DNA of 64,000 nt from Thiothrix litoralis (GTDB taxonomy: Bacteria > Pseudomonadota > Gammaproteobacteria > Thiotrichales > Thiotrichaceae): assembly GCF_017901135.1 (NCBI RefSeq), contig NZ_CP072801.1, positions 4,182,501-4,246,500 on the forward strand. The letters run 5' to 3'. Shown piece after piece: positions 3,007 to 33,755 of this stretch; within the stretch, counting starts at the first letter, position 1; each line of letters starts with the position of its first letter. Made by a program: the position numbers and the translations under genes. Under the pieces are notes generated by a model, which was given only the letters and a program-made list of their open reading frames with translations, made no database searches and was not told the DNA's origin.

Positions 3007-4295
3007 ACCGTTCGCTCCAGCAAAATCTGAACCGCTGGATATTGTCGGCGGTGCTGGTATTTTCCCTGCTGGCGGGGGGCATATCCGGTTGGATAGCTTT
3101 TAATGAAGCCCGCGAATGGCAGGATTCCTTATTGCAACAAGTGGGGGCGCTGGTTGCTACCCAGTCTGGTGATAGGAATTTACCCGCTGATTTTGACCCG
3201 GAAGATACCCTCGTATTGCAACGTTTGGGGGAAAAGTCTGTAAACAGCTTGCCCCTTGCCACCGATCTGGGGGATGGTTTGCACACCCTGGAGGTGCAGG
3301 GAACAGGCTGGCGAGTGTTGGTTTACGGCGGACATTTTGCGGTCAGCCAGCAAACGGAAGTGCGCGACGAAGTAGCTTGGGATAGCAGTTTACGCACTTT
3401 TCTGCCCATCTTGCTATTGGCTCCCATCCTGATGGCGGTGGTTAGTTTTGCGGTTAATCGCAGTTTCATGCCGGTGCGTGCTCTCGCTAGCGTGGTTGAC
3501 CGGCGCGACGAAAACCGGTTGGATGCCTTGCCGGACAAGCGCGTTCCGCAGGAATTGCAGCCTTTTATCAATTCCCTCAATCGCCTGCTGGCACGGCTGC
3601 GCCAAGCGATTGCCCAGCAACAGCGTTTTGTCGCCGATGCCGCGCATGAGTTACGTACTCCGGTAACAGCCATTTCCCTGCTGACCGAAAACCTTGCCAA
3701 TGCGACCACGCTGGCAGAGTCTCGCGAGCGGCTTGCCCCGGTGCAGGAAGGGCTGGAACGGATGCGTACTCTGGTCACGCATTTGCTCGACCTCGCCCGT
3801 GTACAGGGGGAAAATCAGGCTGCGTTACAACCCGTCGATTTTCAGCAAATCGTGCAGGCAGCTATCGGCGAGTCATACCCGCTGGCGGAAGCCAAATCCC
3901 TTGATCTGGGAATGCTGCGCAACGAGCCAGCCACGTTGTTGGATGTGGCAAGCAATCTCAGTATCTTGGTGCGTAATGCGCTGGAAAACGCGATCCGCTA
4001 CACCCCCGCAGGCGGTCAGGTGGATGTTAGCCTGTTTGTGGAAAACGGGCAGGCAGTGTTGCTAGTGGAAGATAGCGGCTGTGGCATCCCCGAAGCCGAG
4101 CTGCAACAGGTTTTCGAGCCATTCTACCGGGTGGGTGTCAGCACCGAGCCGGGGAATGGGCTGGGGCTGGCGATCAGTCAGGAAATAGCCAAACGGCTGG
4201 GGGGGAATATTACCTTATCCAATCGCCCGCAGGGTGGGCTGGTGTTTGGTTATCGTCAACCCACTAGCCTATCATTTACCGTTTTGTTGCGGTGA
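2982..4295 (+). CDS. Sensor histidine kinase (QseC-like architecture)
   Basis: A 437-residue membrane histidine kinase. Residues about 18-38 and 138-158 are membrane segments flanking a short periplasmic sensor. The HisKA H-box is AAHELRTPVTA. The ATPase domain shows the N-box (NALENAIRYTP), G1 (DSGCGIPE), the F-box (FEPFYRV) and G2 (GNGLGLAIS). The start overlaps the end of the response regulator by 25 bases, typical of a coupled pair. The last 24 bases overlap the 3' end of the oppositely oriented cytochrome gene. The signal is unknown. Confidence 0.92.
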   Translation: MDGRQRKLNRSLQQNLNRWILSAVLVFSLLAGGISGWIAFNEAREWQDSLLQQVGALVATQSGDRNLPADFDPEDTLVLQRLGEKSVNSLPLATDLGDGLHTLEVQGTGWRVLVYGGHFAVSQQTEVRDEVAWDSSLRTFLPILLLAPILMAVVSFAVNRSFMPVRALASVVDRRDENRLDALPDKRVPQELQPFINSLNRLLARLRQAIAQQQRFVADAAHELRTPVTAISLLTENLANATTLAESRERLAPVQEGLERMRTLVTHLLDLARVQGENQAALQPVDFQQIVQAAIGESYPLAEAKSLDLGMLRNEPATLLDVASNLSILVRNALENAIRYTPAGGQVDVSLFVENGQAVLLVEDSGCGIPEAELQQVFEPFYRVGVSTEPGNGLGLAISQEIAKRLGGNITLSNRPQGGLVFGYRQPTSLSFTVLLR

Positions 4296-12180: not shown

Positions 12181-12645
12181 CTATAATTGATCGCGTTGTT
12201 CAGATGAAAGCGATTGACTGGATTGGACTATTGGTGTGCCTACAAGTGTTTGTGTGAAACCTGGAGAATCAAACTCAATGTGACCCTGTGGCCAATTAAC
12301 TTTGATAGACCATTGAAAAGACTCGGAATCTGTAGAAAGTTTTGATGGGCGCCGCTCGATACCATCAATCGAAAAAGGGCACATACCTGCTGTTGGAGTA
12401 GCATAGTCAAGCATAAATCTCATGCCAAAAATCTGGTGAAATCTCAATGTCGCACGGCAAACGGTAAATAATAATTCATTGTTGATGTTCTCCCATTTTA
12501 GAATGTAGTCGATGTCAAAGAGCAAATCGGCGACACCCTGATCAGGAACGAATGAATCAAGCTTAAACCCGTGAATATGTACATCATGCCAAGAAAGTGA
12601 CTCAAAATCGCTGGTGTACCAAATTTTTTTAGACATCATTGTCAT
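12181..12645 (-). CDS. Hypothetical protein, 154 aa
   Basis: I do not recognise a named domain. The protein is soluble, with no signal peptide, rich in aromatic residues and beta-type segments (SLSWHDVHIHGF, DLLFDIDYILKW). Its ending QTLVGTPIVQSSQSLSS looks like a tail strand. Similar small single-domain proteins occur widely and some act as immunity or binding proteins, but nothing here shows that. The ATG is preceded by AAAGGAT. It lies 10 bases from the YHYH gene, so co-transcription is likely. Confidence 0.6.
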   Translation of the reverse strand: MTMMSKKIWYTSDFESLSWHDVHIHGFKLDSFVPDQGVADLLFDIDYILKWENINNELLFTVCRATLRFHQIFGMRFMLDYATPTAGMCPFSIDGIERRPSKLSTDSESFQWSIKVNWPQGHIEFDSPGFTQTLVGTPIVQSSQSLSSEQRDQL

Positions 12646-12872
12646 CCTTTAATTTTGAATGATTCTATCACAATTAGCCATGTAAAGCCGCTGTGCTGGG
12701 AAAATTGCTACCACCACACAACAAGGCCATCTCAGATATTTATGTGTGCATAACGTTTTGTCTGGATGGACGGAGCAGAAAGTAAACTTTGGAAAAGTCA
12801 TGAGTTGTTACCGCGTCAGCCGTCGGAATTATAATTATGTAATTTCATCAATTATTTTTCTTAATTAACAGG

Positions 12873-13322
12873 CTACCCTTCATCTCTATTATTCTGGGAT
12901 TTTTCAATGCGTGCTTGAGTGTATTGTGACCAATTGCTATTTTCTCTTGAGATCAAGTTTTCAACTCGCTGGACAAAAATAGCAAAAGAGTTTTTTGTAT
13001 GATAAGGTTCTGCTTTTGTTAGAAAAAGAAATTTCTCATGTTTTAATGATTCACAAGTAGTACGATACTCTCTCCAGTTCTCTTGAAATTGATTTAAACT
13101 GATTGCAGCAGAAATTATTGCTATTGCTGCACCTAGCAAAGCAATAACTAGTGTTACAGGAAAAGGTTCTTTAGCAAATCCTGCGATTAATGGAATTGCA
13201 GCAGCAGCTACAATTTCTATTGCTCTAAGCCGCTTAAACCAACGTTGTGCTTTTTGACTCTTGCTATCATACCATCCAATTTGATCATCAACTCTTGATG
13301 CAAGGTATTCATCTTCATTCAT
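12873..13322 (-). CDS. DUF4231/SLATT-type two-helix membrane protein
   Basis: A 149-residue protein matching the SLATT/DUF4231 plan: an N-terminal helix with YLASRVDDQIGWYDSKSQKAQRWFK, two adjacent membrane helices (about residues 32-50 and 56-75), then a long soluble helical region with ENWREYRTTCESLKHEKFLFL. SLATT proteins are predicted pore-forming effectors in nucleotide-signal-dependent antiphage systems. It is the last gene of an AT-rich cluster, 59 bases after the thymidylate-synthase-like gene. Its role as effector of this cluster is inferred from family and position. Confidence 0.75.
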   Translation of the reverse strand: MNEDEYLASRVDDQIGWYDSKSQKAQRWFKRLRAIEIVAAAAIPLIAGFAKEPFPVTLVIALLGAAIAIISAAISLNQFQENWREYRTTCESLKHEKFLFLTKAEPYHTKNSFAIFVQRVENLISRENSNWSQYTQARIEKSQNNRDEG

Positions 13323-13381
13323 ATACTAACTCCTAATTAATTATTAATCTTTGAATTGATAGGTGCAACGGAATTTGACAA

Positions 13382-14074
13382 CTATTCAATCCTAATGGAT
13401 TTCGGACCATTTGTATAATATTTATCTTGAATGTGTACTTTTTTGCTTGAGATTAACAACTGAGCATCAGAAAAGTCATATTCATATATGTGTGCAGAAG
13501 CAATATATCCTTTCAAGCTTCCTATGCCTACAGAGCATCTATCGGAAAGATCATTTTGTAGTCTAGCTAATGCCAATAAGTTTGCATATTGCCGTCCAAA
13601 GATATTTTGACTTCTAAAGAAAAACTGTAACACTAATTTTTCATTTCTTATCTTTGCATCGATTGTTGTTAAACAGGGTAAATTTGCTGATTGATTTCCC
13701 GGTGTTAGGAGGCAAATAGTGGCAGATTTAGTTTCATTTTTAGTTAAAAGTCTTTCAATCATCCATTCAAATTGATCTACTCCAGAATGATCATAGATAC
13801 AAGCGCCATATGTGAAAGGTCTATCTAGCATAACAACACCTTTTCTAAATTTAGCCAATGTTCTTTTTACTATTGCAGAATCACCATATTTTTTAATTAT
13901 ATGATCCTCTGGCTTCGGATTCAATATTTCAATATTTAATCCGAGAATTTCTTTAATTATAATGTCTTCATCATAATGTAATGAACCAAAGTCCATTACC
14001 TCTTTGATGCTTTTTATCCAGCCTTCGCCAATCGTTTGAGCATGAATAGCTCGACATGTATAATTAGATTTCAT
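13382..14074 (-). CDS. Thymidylate-synthase-like protein
   Basis: A 230-residue divergent ThyA-fold protein, shorter than bacterial ThyA and closer to short archaeal-type members. The active-site Cys appears to be in ANLPCLTTID; RSQNIFGRQYANLLALARL matches the RSxDxFxGxPFN block, with Arg, Ser and Asn kept and Asp changed to Asn; ASAHIYEYD matches the DxHxY block with His and Tyr kept. The arginine pair that usually binds the dUMP phosphate seems replaced (NETKSATI), so the substrate may not be dUMP. It overlaps the upstream ThiL-like gene by 4 bases and is AT-rich like its neighbours. Not a housekeeping thyA by context. Confidence 0.7.
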   Translation of the reverse strand: MKSNYTCRAIHAQTIGEGWIKSIKEVMDFGSLHYDEDIIIKEILGLNIEILNPKPEDHIIKKYGDSAIVKRTLAKFRKGVVMLDRPFTYGACIYDHSGVDQFEWMIERLLTKNETKSATICLLTPGNQSANLPCLTTIDAKIRNEKLVLQFFFRSQNIFGRQYANLLALARLQNDLSDRCSVGIGSLKGYIASAHIYEYDFSDAQLLISSKKVHIQDKYYTNGPKSIRIE

Positions 14075-23123: not shown

Positions 23124-23606
23124 TTAGGTGGTGGCGATGCCATCTTCCCGCAACGCCCGTTCCCGCAGCCCGTTCACCAGCCGCCCCAGCACACCGGGGA
23201 AACTGGCCAGCAAGGCTTCAAATTCTACCCCATCGAGCATGTTTTTCACCCGTAACCCAAGGTCAGTATCGCCTTCAATCCGTAAGCGGCGGTTGAAAAA
23301 TAAGGTATCCGGGTCTTCTAGGCGCATCGCGAGGCGGATGAAATCCATCAGTGTCGCAGTAAAGGTGACATCCTGCCGCCCGGCTGTTTCTGCTTTCAAG
23401 CCGGACGTTGCCACTGAGAACCACAGCGTCATACCAATATCCGCTACATGCACGCAAAAGCGGCGGCCTTGCAGGGCATCCCAGTCCAGATCTTGCAGGC
23501 TTTTCCATACCGAGAGGTTGAAAGCGGTGGCGAAAGCCAACGATGCGGGATAAGCGGGCAGACGAGCCACCAGCCGTGCCAGTGAAGTGGGGAATTTTAA
23601 TGTCAT
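23124..23606 (-). CDS. ubiT: SCP2-domain ubiquinone synthesis factor UbiT
   Basis: A 160-residue SCP2-like lipid carrier protein of the YhbT/UbiT type. With UbiU and UbiV it allows oxygen-independent ubiquinone synthesis. The SCP2 core is recognised by DWDALQGRRFCVHVADIG, LMDFIRLAMRLEDPDTLFFNRRLRIEGD and DLGLRVKNMLDGVE. Third gene of the ubiU-V-T operon, 15 bases after ubiV. Convergent with glbN. Confidence 0.9.
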   Translation of the reverse strand: MTLKFPTSLARLVARLPAYPASLAFATAFNLSVWKSLQDLDWDALQGRRFCVHVADIGMTLWFSVATSGLKAETAGRQDVTFTATLMDFIRLAMRLEDPDTLFFNRRLRIEGDTDLGLRVKNMLDGVEFEALLASFPGVLGRLVNGLRERALREDGIATT

Positions 23607-23621
23607 CGAAGCATTTCTCCT

Positions 23622-24521
23622 TTAAGCGGTAGCTAGGTCTAACCCGGCTTTTCCGAGCCAATACCCGTCACAGGCGGGTGCTGGCAAATACGTTTCCAGC
23701 CGTGCTGCCACTTGCGCTGCGGGCAATGCGCCATCCAGCACCTCGCGGAACAGCGTGATCACTTCCGCCATGTGCTGCGATTGCGGCGACAGGCGTAGCG
23801 TTGTTACCGGCGTTCCGGCCAGTTCTGCCAGCCGGTGTGCTAGTGTGTGTACTTTGCCAGATTGGGTTTGCGTGCCGTTGATGGTGAGGAAACCTTCACC
23901 TTCGCGGGTGTTCATCAGCAAGCCATCCGGGTGGTCGAGGCAGCGGAATTCGCAGGCATCCTTTTGCAGATTGTGGTGGCGGGCGGTGAAGCAGCGCGAG
24001 GAAAAGGCCAGCGGTAAACGCCCGTAGGCAAACACTTCGGTGGCCATCCCCGCCGGGATCGGCATCTCCGCCAGCATGGCACGCGGCATTTCCACGGGGG
24101 GAACCCAACGCACCGCACCCCAGCTTGCCAGCAAGGCCAGCGTATCAGGGTTATACACATTCAGGGCGGGGCCTGCCACAAACGCCTTGCCCGCTTCAAA
24201 CAGTAGCCGCACAGCCCCGAATTCATTGGCTTCCACCCGGAACGAGCCGTTGTCCACGATCTTGCGTAATGCCTTGAGGTCGGACTCGGACTCAATCAGG
24301 GTCTGGGTGGAAAGCACCACTTCCTTGCCTGCGGCGCTCAGCTTTTCCGCCAGCCCCAGCCAGTCATCGAGGCGCATGACGTGGCGGCGTGAACACACGG
24401 TTTCGCCCAGATACACGGTATCCACTGCCCAGTTGGCAGCTTGCTCATAGAAAGTCAGTACGGTGTCGCGGGGCCAGTAATACAACAATGGGCCAAGAGC
24501 CAATTTGATGGATGGTGTCAT
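23622..24521 (-). CDS. ubiV: Oxygen-independent ubiquinone hydroxylation protein UbiV
   Basis: A 299-residue U32-peptidase-like Fe-S protein (YhbV). Likely [4Fe-4S] ligands are the Cys in [11 protein letters not shown] and the set in [13 protein letters not shown] and [10 protein letters not shown]. It partners UbiU in O2-independent ring hydroxylation. Start chosen at [16 protein letters not shown], the usual N-terminus; upstream in-frame codons would run into ubiU. It begins seven bases after the ubiU stop. Confidence 0.93.
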
Positions 24522-24528
24522 CAGTACC

Positions 24529-25539
24529 TCACTTCCACGGGCGGTAATAAGCACCAAGAGTGTGCATACTGCCCTCGGATACCTTGTCGAGTTGCGCCAG
24601 CCAGCCGGGGTGTGGCTGGAAGCCTTGCGGGTTGCGTTTCACCGCATCAATCGCGGCACGCCATACTTGGGTCACTTGCGTGACGTAGGCGGGGCTGCGT
24701 TGGCGGCCTTCGATTTTGATGGCGGCAATGCCGAGGCGGTACATTTCCGGGAGCATTTCCAGCGTATTGAGGCTGGTGGGTTCTTCCAGCGCGTAATAGG
24801 TTTCGCCTTGCACTTCAAAGCGGCCTTTGCACAGGGTTGGGTAGCCTGCCTTTTCGTGGTCGGCGTAACGGTCGATCAGCACCCCGTTGAGGCGGGTTTC
24901 CATGCCTGTGGGGGTCTGTTGCCAGCGCACCGCATGACCGGGCGAACACGCCCCGAAGGTGTTGGGCGAATCCCCGCAGGCATACGAGGACAGCAAACAG
25001 CGCCCTTCCACCATTACGCACAGGCCACCAAAGCCAAACAGTTCGATTTCCACCGGCGTGTGCCGCACGACGTTGGCGACTTGCTGCAAGGACAGCACCC
25101 GTGGCACGACCGCCCGCTGGATGCCGAAATGTTCGTGGTAAAAATTAATGGCTTCGTAATTGGTGGCAGAGCCTTGCACGGAAAGGTGCAGGCGCAATTG
25201 CGGGTGGGTTTTCAGTGCATACGCCATCAGACCGGGGTCGGCGAGGATGATGGCGTCTAGCCCTGCATCTGCCGCTGTATCCACGGCTTGTTGCCAGCGT
25301 TTGAGCATGGCAGGTTGGGGGAAGGTGTTGAGCGCCATCAGTACCTTGCGGTGTTTGGCATGGGCGTAGCGGATGCCGTCGGCGAGTGCCTTGGCGTCGA
25401 AATTCAGGCCGCTGAAATTACGGGCGTTGGTGTTGTCTTTTAAGCCGAGGTATACCCCATCCGCCCCGTGGTCAACGGCTGCCTTGAGTGCGGGCAGACT
25501 GCCAGCGGGGCAGATGAGTTCGAGCAGTGGTGTGGGCAT
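24529..25539 (-). CDS. ubiU: Oxygen-independent ubiquinone hydroxylation protein UbiU
   Basis: A 336-residue U32-family protein (YhbU). It begins [27 protein letters not shown] as in UbiU, and carries the Fe-S cysteines in [30 protein letters not shown], which include the U32 signature. First gene of ubiUVT. An FNR/DNR-like palindrome lies 59 bases upstream, consistent with anaerobic induction. Confidence 0.94.
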
Positions 25540-27179: not shown

Positions 27180-27785
27180 TCAAAACATGCCGGACTTGTC
27201 TGGTTTTTGGCAGGTCTGTAATACATGCCGCTTTACCCCGCACTTTGCCAGTGATACTGCCAATTGTTCAATATCCGCTTTCCCCAGCAGGGTTGGGTCA
27301 ACCGTTGTCCTGATCTCGTAATCCACATGATGGGCGTTCAGCAGCAAATCCAGACTTTCTGCTGCCTTGTGACCGCTGCCTGCCAATCCTGTAATCCTTT
27401 TGTAGGCATGGAACGGGGCTTTAATGTCCAGCCCCACCCAATCCACATAGGGCAACACTTTCGCCAATCGTGCTGGCATGATCCCTGCCGTGTGCAGGGC
27501 AATCTTGAATCCCAGCGCTTTCACTGCCTGCATGGCTTCTGGCAAGCGTGGTTGCAGCAGTGGTTCGCCGCCACTGAACACTACCCCATCCAGAAAACCG
27601 ACCCGTTCCTGCAAAAACCGCATGACCTCGCCCCATTCCAGCGTGCTGGGTACATCGGTGCGCAGCAGGTGTGGGTTATGGCAGTAACTGCAATGCCACG
27701 GGCAGCCCTGACAAAACAACACGGCTGCCAAGTGTCCCGGAAAGTCGATGCTGGTTAGCGGCACTAGCCCGCCTAACTGCAACAT
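27180..27785 (-). CDS. nrdG: Anaerobic ribonucleotide reductase activating protein (radical SAM)
   Basis: A 201-residue radical SAM activase of the TIGR02495 (NrdG2) type. The cluster-binding motif is CQGCPWHCSYCHN, a CxxxxxxxCxxC/CxxC variant, and the SAM-binding GGEP is in FSGGEPLLQ. It makes the glycyl radical on the class III reductase. It overlaps by 13 bases the small ORF that carries the glycyl-radical loop, so activase and radical subunit are coupled. Confidence 0.92.
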   Translation of the reverse strand: MLQLGGLVPLTSIDFPGHLAAVLFCQGCPWHCSYCHNPHLLRTDVPSTLEWGEVMRFLQERVGFLDGVVFSGGEPLLQPRLPEAMQAVKALGFKIALHTAGIMPARLAKVLPYVDWVGLDIKAPFHAYKRITGLAGSGHKAAESLDLLLNAHHVDYEIRTTVDPTLLGKADIEQLAVSLAKCGVKRHVLQTCQKPDKSGMF

Positions 27786-27970
27786 GGACGTTTCCCCTCC
27801 AACCGTGGAGAGGTTTCCTGGAAAGGAAGCCGCTCCGCATGTTCGCTTTGTTTGCCGGGGTTGAAGGAGCTGACCGGGCGGTGGTAGCCCATGACCCGTG
27901 TCCAGACTTCACAACGCTGACGTTCATGGTCAGCCAGTTTGCCGGGCTGCTGGTTTATTGGATGGCGCAT
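27773..27970 (-). CDS. Stand-alone glycyl-radical domain of class III ribonucleotide reductase
   Basis: A 65-residue protein carrying only the NrdD tail. RVMGYHRPVSSFNPGKQSEH aligns with the E. coli NrdD end (RVCGYLG...FNAGKQEE), so Gly28 is the likely radical site. The ATG lies 7 bases after a perfect AGGAGG (27983-27978) and overlaps the nrdD stop by 16 bases in another frame. Its own ribosome site shows it is a real split subunit rather than a sequencing frameshift. It also overlaps the nrdG start. Confidence 0.85.
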   Translation of the reverse strand: MRHPINQQPGKLADHERQRCEVWTRVMGYHRPVSSFNPGKQSEHAERLPFQETSPRLEGKRPCCS

Positions 27971-29667
27971 AGGGATTCCTCCTGTTTTTGGTGCAATAGC
28001 TCTTCATCACAGCGCGGGCAGAACTCGTGTTCTCCACTGAGATAACCGTGTTTGGGGCAGATGGAAAAGGTGGGTGTCACCGTGATGTACGGCAGCCGGA
28101 AACGTTCCAGACTGCGGCGTACCAGTTGCTTGCAGGCTTGTGGGCTGGAAATGCGTTCCTGCATGTATAGGTGCAGTACCGTGCCACCGTTGTACAGGGT
28201 CTGCAAACCGTCTTGCAGGCTCAGTGCTACGAAGGGGTCGGCAGTGTAACCCACCGGCAACTGGGTGGAATTGGTGTAATACGGGCGTTCTACGGTTCCG
28301 GCCTGCAAGATGTTGGGAAAACGTTTCTGGTCTTCCCGTGCAAAACGGTAGGTTGTGCCTTCTGCCGGGGTGGCTTCTAGGTTGTACATGTGTCCGGTTT
28401 CTTCCTGAAAGTCCCGCAGGCGGCGGCGGATATGCCGCAACAGGCGTACTGCCAGTGCTTGCCCCGCAGGTTCGGCAATGTGGGTCGTATCCCCGCTAAA
28501 ATTGCGGATCATCTCATTCACACCGTTCACGCCGATGGTGGAGAAATGGTTGCGCAAGGTTCCCAGATAACGTTGGGTGTAGGGGTAAAGCCCCTGATCC
28601 ATGTGCTGCTGGATTACCCGGCGTTTGATTTCAAGGCTGTCGCGCCCCAGTTCCAGTAACGTGTCCAGCCGTGCAAACAGTGCCGCCTTGTCACCTCTGT
28701 ACAAATAGCCCAGCCGGGCGCAATTGATGGTAAATACCCCCAGCGAGCCGGTTTGTTCCGCCGAGCCGAACAAGCCGTTGCCACGCCGTTCCAGTTGGCG
28801 CAAGTCGAGTTGCAGGCGGCAACACATGGAACGCACCATGCCCGGTTCCAACCCTGACTTCAGGAAATTCTGGAAGTAGGGCAGGCCGTATTTCGCCGTG
28901 ACCCGGAACAACAGGTCGGTATTGTCATCTTCCCACGGGAAATCCTGGGTGATGTTGTAAGTGGGGATGGGGAAGGTAAACACCCGCCCACAGGCATCGC
29001 CCTCTTCCATCACTTCAAGGAAAGCGCGGTTGATCATGCCCATTTCCACTTGGCAGTCAGCGTAGGTGAACGGCATTTCTTCCCCGGCAATCACCGGGAC
29101 TTGGGCTTTCAGGTCATCCGGGCATGTCCAGTCGAAGGTCAGGTTGGTGAACGGGGTTTGTGAGCCCCAGCGTGAGGGGAAATTCAGGTTGAAAATGAAG
29201 GACTGCATCAGTTGCCGGACATACCCGTATTCCAGCCCATCCTTGCGGATGTAGGGGGCAAGGTAAGTGTCGAAGGAACTGAATGCCTGTGCGCCTGCCC
29301 ATTCATTCTGCAAGGTGCCGAGAAAATTCACTGCCTGCCACAAGGCACTGTCCAGATGTTTGGGCGCTTTGGCATCGGTACGCCCCGGCACGCCGTTGAA
29401 ACCTTCGTGCAGCAGGCTACGCAATGACCAGCCTGCGCAATAGCCGCCCAGCATGTCGAGGTCGTGGATATGCACATCCCCGTCACGGTGGGCTTGCCCG
29501 ATGTCCGTTGGGTATACCTGATCGAGCCAGTAGTTGGCAATCATTTTTCCCGCCGTGTTCAGGATCAGCCCCCCGACGGAATAGCCCTGATTGGCATTGG
29601 CATTCACCCGCCAATCACGTTGTTGCAGGTAACTGTCGATGGTATCGGCAACCTCCACGCAGCTCAT
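27955..29667 (-). CDS. nrdD: Class III (anaerobic) ribonucleoside-triphosphate reductase, large part
   Basis: A 570-residue NrdD. It makes deoxyribonucleotides without oxygen. HIHDLDMLGGYCAGWS and TNLTFDW are family blocks, and FSICPKHGYLSGEHEFCPRC is the zinc site that normally precedes the glycyl-radical loop. The protein ends there: the radical loop is on the next ORF. It also lacks the N-terminal ATP-cone, so the usual allosteric on/off site is absent. The ATG at 29667 overlaps the tauD-like stop by 4 bases. Confidence 0.93.
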   Translation of the reverse strand: MSCVEVADTIDSYLQQRDWRVNANANQGYSVGGLILNTAGKMIANYWLDQVYPTDIGQAHRDGDVHIHDLDMLGGYCAGWSLRSLLHEGFNGVPGRTDAKAPKHLDSALWQAVNFLGTLQNEWAGAQAFSSFDTYLAPYIRKDGLEYGYVRQLMQSFIFNLNFPSRWGSQTPFTNLTFDWTCPDDLKAQVPVIAGEEMPFTYADCQVEMGMINRAFLEVMEEGDACGRVFTFPIPTYNITQDFPWEDDNTDLLFRVTAKYGLPYFQNFLKSGLEPGMVRSMCCRLQLDLRQLERRGNGLFGSAEQTGSLGVFTINCARLGYLYRGDKAALFARLDTLLELGRDSLEIKRRVIQQHMDQGLYPYTQRYLGTLRNHFSTIGVNGVNEMIRNFSGDTTHIAEPAGQALAVRLLRHIRRRLRDFQEETGHMYNLEATPAEGTTYRFAREDQKRFPNILQAGTVERPYYTNSTQLPVGYTADPFVALSLQDGLQTLYNGGTVLHLYMQERISSPQACKQLVRRSLERFRLPYITVTPTFSICPKHGYLSGEHEFCPRCDEELLHQKQEESLCAIQ

Positions 29668-30572
29668 GCCAGCCACTCCCGCATCCCGGTGCCAGCCAGC
29701 CTGTCCATGTAACGGGCACGGTACAGTAAACGGTGGCGTTCGGGGGCGTCCTCAAAGCCGCTACGGTCATGCAGCACATTGTTGCTGACCAGTCCCATGC
29801 CCGGTTCCAGCTTGCCCCGAAAAATATAGCGTGATTCACCTTCCAGCCAGTTGCTGAGGGCAGCCAGTGCTTCGAGTGTTAGCGGGTCGTTTTTCCACAC
29901 CACATTGCGCCCACGGATGGTGTAACGCATGTGCAAATCACCCGTCAACGGGTTAACAGAAAACACTGGCCCGACATTTTCCGCACGGGCAACCGTATTG
30001 CCGTGGGTACGGGCGGGGATGGTCATCACATCTGGTTGCATCAAGGCACGGATGTAGTCCGGGTTCTGGTCACGCAGGTGCAAATAGGCCATTTCATGAT
30101 CCAGCAAGCGGTTCTCGCCACCCGTAGGAGCGCTTTGCACGCAATGCAGCAACAGGCCGTGGACTTGCTGGTCGGGTGGGTTGTAATAGCCGTCGGTATG
30201 CCACTGGATAGCGCGGTTACTGTAGGGAATGTAATGTTCGCGTTCCCCGCTATCCCCGGCGGCGACGGTCAGGGAGGTCAGCCCATCGTCGTCTGCCAGC
30301 CAGTTATGGTTGAGGTGTAGAAGGCCAAACTGTTGTGCCAGCCGATGCGGGATGTTGCGGTCAGGGTCATCGCCGGTTTTGCCCACATAAATGGCCATAT
30401 TGGCTTTGCGGCAGCGTGTCAGGATGGCTTGGTGTTCGGCATCCGTCAGATGGCGTGGATCGTTGACTTCCACGATCAGGTCTTCCAGATGCGCTGGGTA
30501 GTTTTGCAGCTTTTGCTCACGCCAGTGTTGGTACAGGGCTTCATCATCCAGCAGGAAAAGGCTATGCGTCAT
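29664..30572 (-). CDS. TauD/TfdA-type Fe(II)/2-oxoglutarate dioxygenase
   Basis: A 302-residue TauD/GbbH-like dioxygenase. The metal HxD is in QWHTDGYYN, the distal His in NNVLHDRSGFED and the oxoglutarate Arg in RLLYRARYMDRL. Members use O2 to hydroxylate small molecules. It is the first gene of the nrdD operon (4-base overlap with nrdD), an odd setting for an O2-dependent enzyme. An FNR/DNR-like box lies upstream. Substrate unknown. Confidence 0.87.
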   Translation of the reverse strand: MTHSLFLLDDEALYQHWREQKLQNYPAHLEDLIVEVNDPRHLTDAEHQAILTRCRKANMAIYVGKTGDDPDRNIPHRLAQQFGLLHLNHNWLADDDGLTSLTVAAGDSGEREHYIPYSNRAIQWHTDGYYNPPDQQVHGLLLHCVQSAPTGGENRLLDHEMAYLHLRDQNPDYIRALMQPDVMTIPARTHGNTVARAENVGPVFSVNPLTGDLHMRYTIRGRNVVWKNDPLTLEALAALSNWLEGESRYIFRGKLEPGMGLVSNNVLHDRSGFEDAPERHRLLYRARYMDRLAGTGMREWLA

Positions 30573-32477: not shown

Positions 32478-33755
32478 GTGGCGGGGAAAACGGCTGCATG
32501 GACTAAAATTGGGCACTCGTGGCGGCAGGAAGGCTTTTTCGGTCAGACACTAAATATCGAGTCGCCTGTTACGGGCAAATACGCGCTTTCCCAGCTAGGC
32601 TTCCGGCCTTTTTTCTTGGCTGCCGGACTATTTGCCATTGTCAGCATGGTGCTATGGACAGGCATTTACAGCTTTGGCTGGGGTGGGTTGCATTCCGGGT
32701 ATCCCGCCATCACGTGGCACGCCCATGAAATGGTGTTTGGCTATACGGTGGCGGTGGCTGCCGGTTTCCTGCTGACTGCTATCAGGAACTGGACGGGGCA
32801 ACAAACTTTGCATGGCTGGCCTTTGCTGGCATTGGTGGGGATGTGGCTGCTGGCGCGTATCTTGCCCTTTGTGGGGGAGCTGCCACTGCTCGTGTTGGCG
32901 GTGGTGGATACGCTGTTCCTGTTTTGCCTGTTGCTGGCGGTGGCGTACCCGATCATTCGGGCAAAACAATGGCAGCAGATGGGCATCGTGGGCAGTGTCA
33001 CCCTGTTGGTGGTGGCAGATGCCGTGTTTTATCTGGGCTTGCTGGGGATATGGCCTAAAGGGCTGCAACTCGGTTTGTATGGCGCTTTTTACCTTATCCT
33101 TTCTTTGATTCTCATCGTCGGGCGGCGGGTTATCCCGTTTTTTATTGAACGCGGGGTAGGTTGCCCGTTTACTGCGCGTAACCGTGGATGGATCGACAGT
33201 TCCGCCCTGGTATTACTCCTGCTGTTTGCTGTGGCGGATTTGACCTTCATGGTGACGGGTCATGGGGTGGCTGGTTATGTCAGTGCTGAGCTGGCGTTGC
33301 TGCAAGTACTGTTGCACAGCCTGCGCTTGTGGGGGTGGCATCACCCCAATATCTGGAAAAAGCCGCTGCTGTGGGTGTTGTATCTGGCTTATCTCTGGCT
33401 GGTGCTGGGCTTCCTGTTGAAATTTCTTGCTGTCGTGGCGGGTGTGTCGCCGTGGTTAGCTGTACATGCCTTTGCTTATGGCGGTTTTACGGTCGTTACC
33501 GTCGGGATGATGGCTCGTGTCATTCTTGGGCATACCGGGCGTAATGTCTTTGAACCACCGCTGGTGGTGGTCGCGGTTTTTGTGTTGCTATTGGGTGGGG
33601 CGGCTATCCGGGTGCTGGCGGTGTGGTGGTTGCCGCATAGCCATGCGGTGTGGATTTTGGCATCACAACTGTTGTGGATCGCTGCTTTTACCCTGTTTGT
33701 GTGGAAATACGCGCCGATGCTGCTCAAGCCAAGGATCGATGGACGTTATGGCTGA
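32478..33755 (+). CDS. nnrS: NnrS-family haem-copper membrane protein, 5' end replaced by IS
   Basis: NnrS is a polytopic membrane protein linked to nitric-oxide stress and denitrification. About 12 hydrophobic segments are present, with family blocks LGFRPFFLAAG, WHAHEMVFGY, GRRVIPFF and HAFAYGGF. Native codons begin at 32553 (N-I-E-S-P); the first 25 codons come from the IS right end, starting at a GTG, so a chimeric product could be made if transcribed from the IS. The native ATG is at 30702 on the far side. It is followed directly by the radical SAM gene. Confidence 0.83.
   Translation: MAGKTAAWTKIGHSWRQEGFFGQTLNIESPVTGKYALSQLGFRPFFLAAGLFAIVSMVLWTGIYSFGWGGLHSGYPAITWHAHEMVFGYTVAVAAGFLLTAIRNWTGQQTLHGWPLLALVGMWLLARILPFVGELPLLVLAVVDTLFLFCLLLAVAYPIIRAKQWQQMGIVGSVTLLVVADAVFYLGLLGIWPKGLQLGLYGAFYLILSLILIVGRRVIPFFIERGVGCPFTARNRGWIDSSALVLLLLFAVADLTFMVTGHGVAGYVSAELALLQVLLHSLRLWGWHHPNIWKKPLLWVLYLAYLWLVLGFLLKFLAVVAGVSPWLAVHAFAYGGFTVVTVGMMARVILGHTGRNVFEPPLVVVAVFVLLLGGAAIRVLAVWWLPHSHAVWILASQLLWIAAFTLFVWKYAPMLLKPRIDGRYG

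Follow-up and report, generated by a model that had tools for sequence, protein, structure and literature searches.

DNA precursors can be made without oxygen by the class III (anaerobic) ribonucleotide reductase (RNR), an enzyme whose glycyl radical does not survive contact with oxygen. We analyzed the genes for this enzyme, nrdD and nrdG, in a 64,000-nucleotide stretch of the Thiothrix litoralis genome (contig NZ_CP072801.1, positions 4,182,501 to 4,246,500; hereafter the window), together with a small gene between them that probably encodes the glycyl-radical subunit. All three genes are on the minus strand, and coordinates are those of the window. The large gene, nrdD (27955..29676), begins with GTG and encodes 573 amino acids that comprise the catalytic barrel and a zinc ribbon. 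Its product matches positions 2-529 of the 562 in Pfam NRDD (581.6 bits) and positions 98-658 of the 684 in PRK08270; by these matches and by its translation it has neither an ATP-cone nor a glycyl-radical loop. C540, H543, C553 and C556, near the end of the protein (28009..28059), are probably the zinc ligands, by analogy with the family, and the equivalent positions are invariant across the 65 rows of alignment A3. The nrdD stop codon comes 17 residues past the last of these Cys residues (end segment SICPKHGYLSGEHEFCPRC). A preliminary description of this DNA had NrdD ending after the zinc site, as we found, and gave the span as 27773-29667, which is about right except that the 5' end of nrdD is at 29676.

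The small gene (27773..27970) encodes 65 amino acids (RCEVWTRVMGYHRPVSSFNPGKQ), including the loop RVMGYHRP. Its ATG, at 27970, stands seven bases after an AGGAGG ribosome-binding site (27978..27983) that lies within the nrdD frame. The small open reading frame (ORF) and nrdD are in different frames and overlap by 16 bases, counted to the end of the nrdD stop codon. The next gene, nrdG (27180..27785), encodes the 201-residue radical SAM activase (NCBIfam NrdG2, 194.8 bits; cut-off 131.15), and its start overlaps the end of the small ORF by 13 bases. The sequence bears out the preliminary description on the loop-bearing ORF, its frame, both overlaps, and the AGGAGG with its spacing. The putative radical glycine is Gly28 (codon 27887..27889), which is a glycine in 89/89 loci and is placed by two structure models described below. 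The Pfam NRDD model (PF13597) is shared out between the two proteins, 2-529 to the large and 530-560 to the small (32.5 bits), with no gap and no overlap, and both proteins score above the cut-off of 26.2 bits. The sequence features of a class III RNR are present: an NRDD barrel, a zinc ribbon, a glycyl loop within the system, and NrdG as the next gene. In the usual class III enzyme the loop is on the barrel polypeptide. We call the Thiothrix enzyme a variant because a different ORF, read in another frame, carries its loop.

We suggest, with a probability of about 0.88, that this is a class III RNR made of two gene products, in which the glycyl-radical loop is on a separately translated small protein. 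We strongly favor a true two-gene enzyme, as the preliminary description did, because relatives share the split, a ribosome-binding site of its own precedes the small gene, which is under purifying selection, its frame relative to nrdD varies among relatives, and the two genes are unlinked in one genus.

The split is conserved within the genus. The small ORF and the split were found in 5 of the 15 other Thiothrix-genus genomes searched, twice in one of them. The preliminary description had proposed looking for the same split in relatives, and held that fused genes at this site, together with reads showing an indel, would refute it. Fused relatives do exist, some of them close, but these five Thiothrix-genus genomes share the split. 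On plasmid pTfr153 of Thiothrix fructosivorans (L095), an interruption leaves the large nrdD as two open frames; the record has no coding sequence for it, the small gene and nrdG are annotated, and the identical junction is present in G008 (L157).

Beyond the genus, we used the small protein to scan a single genome of each species. At least 589 stretches were found; among the 589 listed, 565 encode a relative, and we retained the 80 best. We surveyed 89 records with a WTRVMGYH loop: the window, L001-L087 and L089, in which L081 is a duplicate of the window and L086 of L001. Most of these were selected for likeness to the small protein, and a more even sample, described below, therefore weighs more. 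None of the 89 was fused, and TRVMGYHR was invariant in all of them. The frame offset of the small gene from nrdD was 0 in 19 loci, +1 in 36 and +2 in 34, and the spacing ranged from -41 to +180 bases, with 27 overlapping and 62 non-overlapping pairs; the spacings for L001 and L086 are unreliable, as there is N in the sequence. In the T. singaporensis metagenome-assembled genome (MAG; L001, L156), an ambiguous N in the small ORF breaks the frame, probably an assembly flaw. A Shine-Dalgarno core preceded the nearest in-frame ATG in 72/81 loci, compared to 69/1127 internal nrdD Met codons; we quote only this nearest-ATG figure because the choice of start in the 89-locus survey was partly based on Shine-Dalgarno sequences. 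nrdG followed the small gene in each of the 82 loci checked, and in none of the 82 was the small gene fused to nrdG.

The small gene is under purifying selection. Of its 65 positions, 19 are invariant across 18 aligned small proteins. The ratio of nonsynonymous to synonymous substitution rates (dN/dS) for the core of the protein was 0.04-0.12 when compared with five other sequences of the Thiothrix genus. For four sequences that are more distant, it was 0.12-0.24 in three cases and saturated in the fourth. These values come from a short gene with few synonymous sites and near saturation.

The even sample of the phylum contained 397 genomes, of which 20 held this NrdD type (at least 49% identity). 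The genes were split in 17 of these, from 12 families, each with a small gene, and fused in three (G037, G065 and G360). In the phylum as sampled, this NrdD type is thus more often split than fused. A further 13 matches in the 397 genomes were to the distant E. coli type (~25% identity). Among 72,556 plasmid records there were 29 matches. We examined 11: seven were split (C. necator, Sulfuricurvum, Cereibacter, T. fructosivorans, Shinella, Bradyrhizobium and Paracoccus) and four fused (Acidiphilium, A. ferrooxidans, Actinomyces and Geoalkalibacter). Pseudomonas-type coverage comprised Pseudomonas other than P. aeruginosa, plus Stutzerimonas. Four loci (L068 and L113/L136/L152) were counted as split and three (L114/L137/L160) as fused from the junction survey, the tails and the profile match; a search with the loop pattern had marked these seven as loopless, together with L126 (genome G294, in which the small gene is far away). 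Split pairs also occur in MAGs labeled Chloroflexota, Omnitrophota and Verrucomicrobiota (L012, L018, L039 and L077). These fall among proteobacterial sequences, and their placement reflects either transfer or bin contamination.

In one genus the small gene has left nrdD. In G294, nrdD is at 4042..1997 of L150, the small ORF at 13398..13144 and nrdG at 13139..12444, such that the small gene and nrdG are more than 9 kb from nrdD, with genes on the opposite strand between. The stretch from nrdD to nrdG also includes genes that by eye resemble those for UbiU and UbiV. In its congener G432, nrdD is on a 73.9 kb contig and the small gene and nrdG are on a 103.7 kb contig; no loop is encoded within 12 kb around nrdD. 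The searched set contained no genomes of that family other than these two. Since the small gene sits with nrdG and is unlinked from nrdD, the small protein, judged from the gene order, must act in trans in this genus. Upon separation, the small gene stays with the gene for the activase. In a different genome (G007, L158), a barrel in a frame of 685 codons, with room for a cone, groups with sequences from Sedimenticolaceae and animal symbionts. Next in this operon come a small protein resembling that of Thiothrix and then nrdG, as if the barrel and the radical module were exchangeable.

The gene content indicates that the small protein is an obligate subunit and not a spare. A profile search of the complete T. 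litoralis genome gave one large and one small NRDD match and no other match to the family. Across 22 split genomes (T. litoralis and 21 others), every NRDD match belonged to a large/small pair, with two pairs in G002 and the large gene in two pieces in G008, and no loop-bearing NrdD stood beside the small gene in any of them. As the matches are pairs only, there is no intact class III enzyme for which the small protein would be a spare. The T. litoralis genome also encodes the class I RNR proteins NrdA and NrdB. Its NrdA gene (L174 467..4303, minus strand; G000:C1 3072866-3076702) has an in-frame insert of ~365 residues that is intein-like: it begins CFPAGTQVLTRDG, ends GLVVHN before CNLGSVN, and has weak matches to intein-containing families. 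Taken together, the comparisons indicate that the T. litoralis enzyme represents an obligate, two-piece variant of class III RNR that is widespread and not peculiar to one genome.

Structure models placed the glycine of the small protein at the expected site. Because the T. litoralis small gene lies in another frame, we used AlphaFold to model relatives with both genes in one frame, reading through the stop codon. The model from Pseudomonas sp. KBW05 (L060), made with a 65-row alignment, had a predicted local distance difference test score (pLDDT) of 86.1 and a predicted template modeling score (pTM) of 0.82. That from Alloalcanivorax (L075), made with 46 rows and no naturally fused rows, had a pLDDT of 80.5 and a pTM of 0.82. 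In both models the glycine (Gly693 in L060 and Gly638 in L075) is flanked by two strands. The best matches among solved structures were P. copri for L060 (Z 35.4, root-mean-square deviation 2.7 over 554 residues) and S. thermophilus for L075 (Z 33.6, 2.9 over 518). In the 10 T4 and T. maritima entries whose alignment reaches the loop, the glycine fell on T4 Gly580 or T. maritima Gly621 in eight (L060) and nine (L075) and was off by one in the rest; these placements were counted back from the ends of the aligned ranges and assume no gap from the glycine to the end of the range. Reference glycine numbering is from PMC4493059 and PMC11226230. The models are supportive, but not decisive, of a position of the small-protein glycine at the radical site of the barrel, which the preliminary description had offered as a check.

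The fused relatives fall into distant forms (Geoalkalibacter, G037 and G065) and close ones (Acidiphilium, the A. ferrooxidans plasmid, Actinomyces and G360). We built a tree of 98 NrdDs with the three distant fused forms as the outgroup. It leaves out the loci with a partial NrdD (L007, L013, L042, L043, L048, L057 and L157), one with a broken frame (L016), the E. coli type (L140-L149), short or repeated loci (L081-L089, L095-L120, L126, L136 and L139), and rows at least 97% identical to one that was kept. Against the outgroup, 92 split and three fused rows form one group (Shimodaira-Hasegawa-like approximate likelihood ratio test, 100). Four changes between the split and fused states are required on this tree, three of them forced by the starred branches. 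Using approximately unbiased (AU) tests on a subset of 38 rows, a single clade of all six fused forms was rejected (p 2.3e-5), as was a tree in which G360 joins the distant fused forms (p 0.024). Placing Actinomyces (p 0.33) or Actinomyces and Acidiphilium (p 0.20) with the distant fused forms was not rejected. Long branches are present in the tree.

The junctions give a further indication. In the distant fused forms there are four residues from the last zinc Cys to the loop (e.g., CPHCGKDAEVWSR). From that Cys to EVW there are 12 in Acidiphilium, A. ferrooxidans and Actinomyces, and 4 in G360. A Cys directly before EVW (Cys20 in the window) is kept in 88/89 split small proteins, and is absent from the three distant fused NrdDs and from G360. 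The 12-residue junction and the Cys before EVW, both shared with split forms, favor re-fusion and suggest that the Acidiphilium and Actinomyces enzymes were re-fused from split forms. G360 has the short four-residue junction and no Cys before EVW, yet it groups with a split Sulfuricurvum sequence. A single split followed by later re-fusion is only partly supported, and the tree alone is indecisive.

Several other readings were weighed. A -1 ribosomal frameshift in the overlap (CACCAAAAACAGG) could yield a fused NrdD in T. litoralis, where a run of five A precedes the small ORF, which lies in the -1 frame. However, the relatives show all three frame relations and gaps of up to 180 bases, the genes are unlinked in two species, and the small gene has its own Shine-Dalgarno sequence and ATG. 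We consider frameshifting in T. litoralis very unlikely, although a minor product made in this way in that organism alone is conceivable, and the varied frame and spacing and the unlinked genes rule out a programmed frameshift as a general mechanism. The small ORF could instead be a spare part, like GrcA/YfiD, for an NrdD that has its own loop; its size and content resemble the idea put forward in PMC8683613. But the large protein is loopless, and no loop-bearing NrdD was found with the small gene in the 22 split genomes; we reject this reading as exceedingly improbable. For a sequencing error or a decaying gene there is the frame break itself and nothing more. The same junction in other genomes of the genus rules out an error, and with the purifying selection and the RefSeq annotation of the same pair elsewhere we give this reading practically no weight. 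A search for a phage origin found no match to the small protein at E 1e-3 among 50,697 phage records.

The benefit of the split is a different matter from its existence. In the mechanism that we propose for the two-gene enzyme, the large NrdD would supply the barrel and the zinc ribbon and the 65-residue protein the loop. From the models, this loop of the small protein would enter the barrel at the place taken in an ordinary NrdD by the C-terminal tail. The radical would be put on Gly28 by NrdG, the product of the next, overlapping gene. A small subunit cleaved by oxygen could then be replaced while the 573-residue barrel is kept, which would suit bacteria that meet oxygen. An oxygen cut would cost ~50-90 residues, and a fresh part activated by NrdG would restore the reductase. 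The preliminary description placed the radical on a detachable subunit: the loop is on a separate gene product, and its exchange during the life of the enzyme, after oxygen damage, is what we propose. If so, this could be the first obligate two-subunit glycyl radical enzyme, with its radical on a small, replaceable protein, and many Proteobacteria exposed to oxygen would have it as their normal class III RNR; we put this forward tentatively and think it somewhat doubtful. The two proteins might instead form a permanent complex after a neutral, harmless split, in which the small subunit is not exchanged and the split confers no advantage under oxygen. We give even odds to this explanation, which rivals the benefit, not the two-piece enzyme. 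It fits the adjacency of the genes in nearly all loci, the overlap with nrdD in 27/89, and the fused relatives, whose existence means that both states are viable. It also fits the failure of a COX1-type oxidase to divide split from fused genomes cleanly. The split form is nonetheless the commoner one (17/20, 12 families), and in one genus the small gene has left nrdD and yet stayed with nrdG. The oxidase was present in 20/22 split genomes, as expected for organisms that meet oxygen.

Some observations weigh against the two-gene enzyme as we describe it, or against its proposed advantage. The split pairs are known here from genes, sequence comparison and models. By the same count, the glycine of both models misses Gly711 by one residue in each of the three P. 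copri entries whose alignment extends to the loop. The models are also single chains, tethered by the read-through, and fused NrdDs probably figured in the predictor's training; both favor docking. Fused members (Acidiphilium, Actinomyces and G360) sit inside or next to the split group; because of this, separation is not indispensable. The COX1-type oxidase is absent from two split genomes, G198 and G217 (0.9 Mb), and present in two of the three fused ones (G037 and G360); there is no clean correlation between the oxidase and the split state.

The Thiothrix enzyme has the same barrel, zinc ribbon, glycyl loop and NrdG as ordinary fused NrdDs (T4, T. maritima and P. copri; PRK08270), and differs in that its loop is on a separate gene product and this copy has no ATP-cone. 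By its motifs, RSMCCRL and GLFGS (with the finger-loop Phe), the window protein appears to fit the NrdDh4 group (PMC4493059); MCCR and the finger-loop Phe are invariant in alignment A3. The enzymes on the Acidiphilium pACMV3, A. ferrooxidans and Actinomyces oris plasmids have a barrel 69% identical to that of the window and the same WTRVMGY loop, in one chain, as does G360 with a barrel 57-62% identical. GrcA/YfiD and Y06I, the spare parts of pyruvate formate-lyase (PFL), are likewise small, free-standing glycyl-radical proteins that act on a barrel in trans (PMC8683613). They serve a loop-bearing enzyme after oxygen damage, whereas the Thiothrix barrel never has the loop and the small protein would be obligatory. 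NrdJa and NrdJb, the class II RNR of Pseudomonas aeruginosa, are also an RNR divided into two adjacent genes (PMC4009431); unlike the Thiothrix pair, they are B12-dependent and have no stored glycyl radical. Phage nrdD genes in pieces (the T-even introns, the c-st intein, the fragments in Aeromonas phage phiAS4, and Lactococcus phage 949) are introns, inteins or recent fragmentation in single phages, and the available part of PMC3653736 describes no conserved separate glycyl-loop gene.

We found no description of a separate glycyl-radical gene for a class III RNR in the literature searched, with most subscription papers out of reach, including Siedow et al. 1999 on the C. eutrophus enzyme; an earlier report of a split class III RNR is possible. 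In the part available, a 2014 review treats the class III enzyme as a pair of proteins (NrdD and NrdG) and reserves "split" for the P. aeruginosa class II enzyme (PMC4009431). Annotation models see both proteins, since RefSeq names each in several plasmid records, the large as "ribonucleoside triphosphate reductase" and the small as "nrdD". The small gene would be missed by length-filtered data sets such as that of PMC9531940, because sequences of <400 residues were removed. The nrdD of Cupriavidus necator H16, on pHG1, is split, and NrdDG of this strain is described as essential for complete denitrification (PMC2864759). This pair is the best hint that the split enzyme works in cells.

The preliminary description also held that the large subunit lacks an ATP-cone, and it does. 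The match to PRK08270 leaves out the first 97 positions, which we take to be the ATP-cone region. The cone seems truly absent, because only 25 open codons precede the nrdD GTG and the gene directly upstream, for a TauD/TfdA-family dioxygenase (29664..30572, minus strand; Pfam TauD, 65.6 bits), overlaps nrdD by 13 bases, where a cone would be encoded. From the sequences of the split relatives, most of which have space for a cone, its absence appears unconnected with the split. There were <90 open codons before the motif WRVxANAN in 19 of the 110 NrdD records (some repeated) where it was found, and a lack of room for a cone is, on this count, a minority state and not unique to the T. litoralis genome. 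The TauD-family dioxygenase uses oxygen and its gene overlaps the start of that for an anaerobic enzyme; Thiothrix fructosivorans has the same neighbor. Downstream of the nrdD operon are genes for UbiT, UbiV and UbiU, of oxygen-independent ubiquinone synthesis (23124..25539, minus strand), and NnrS is encoded at 32478..33755.

A radical on its own subunit would, if true, alter how the enzyme is expressed and assayed, as the large NrdD and NrdG alone would be inactive, and would permit radical loading and docking to be studied apart. A split class III RNR also bears on the remark in PMC8683613 that, although only two spare-part proteins are validated there, both for PFL, separate radical-bearing proteins for other glycyl radical enzymes may exist. 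For the bacteria, a separate small protein may let the oxygen-sensitive part of the enzyme be swapped by itself.

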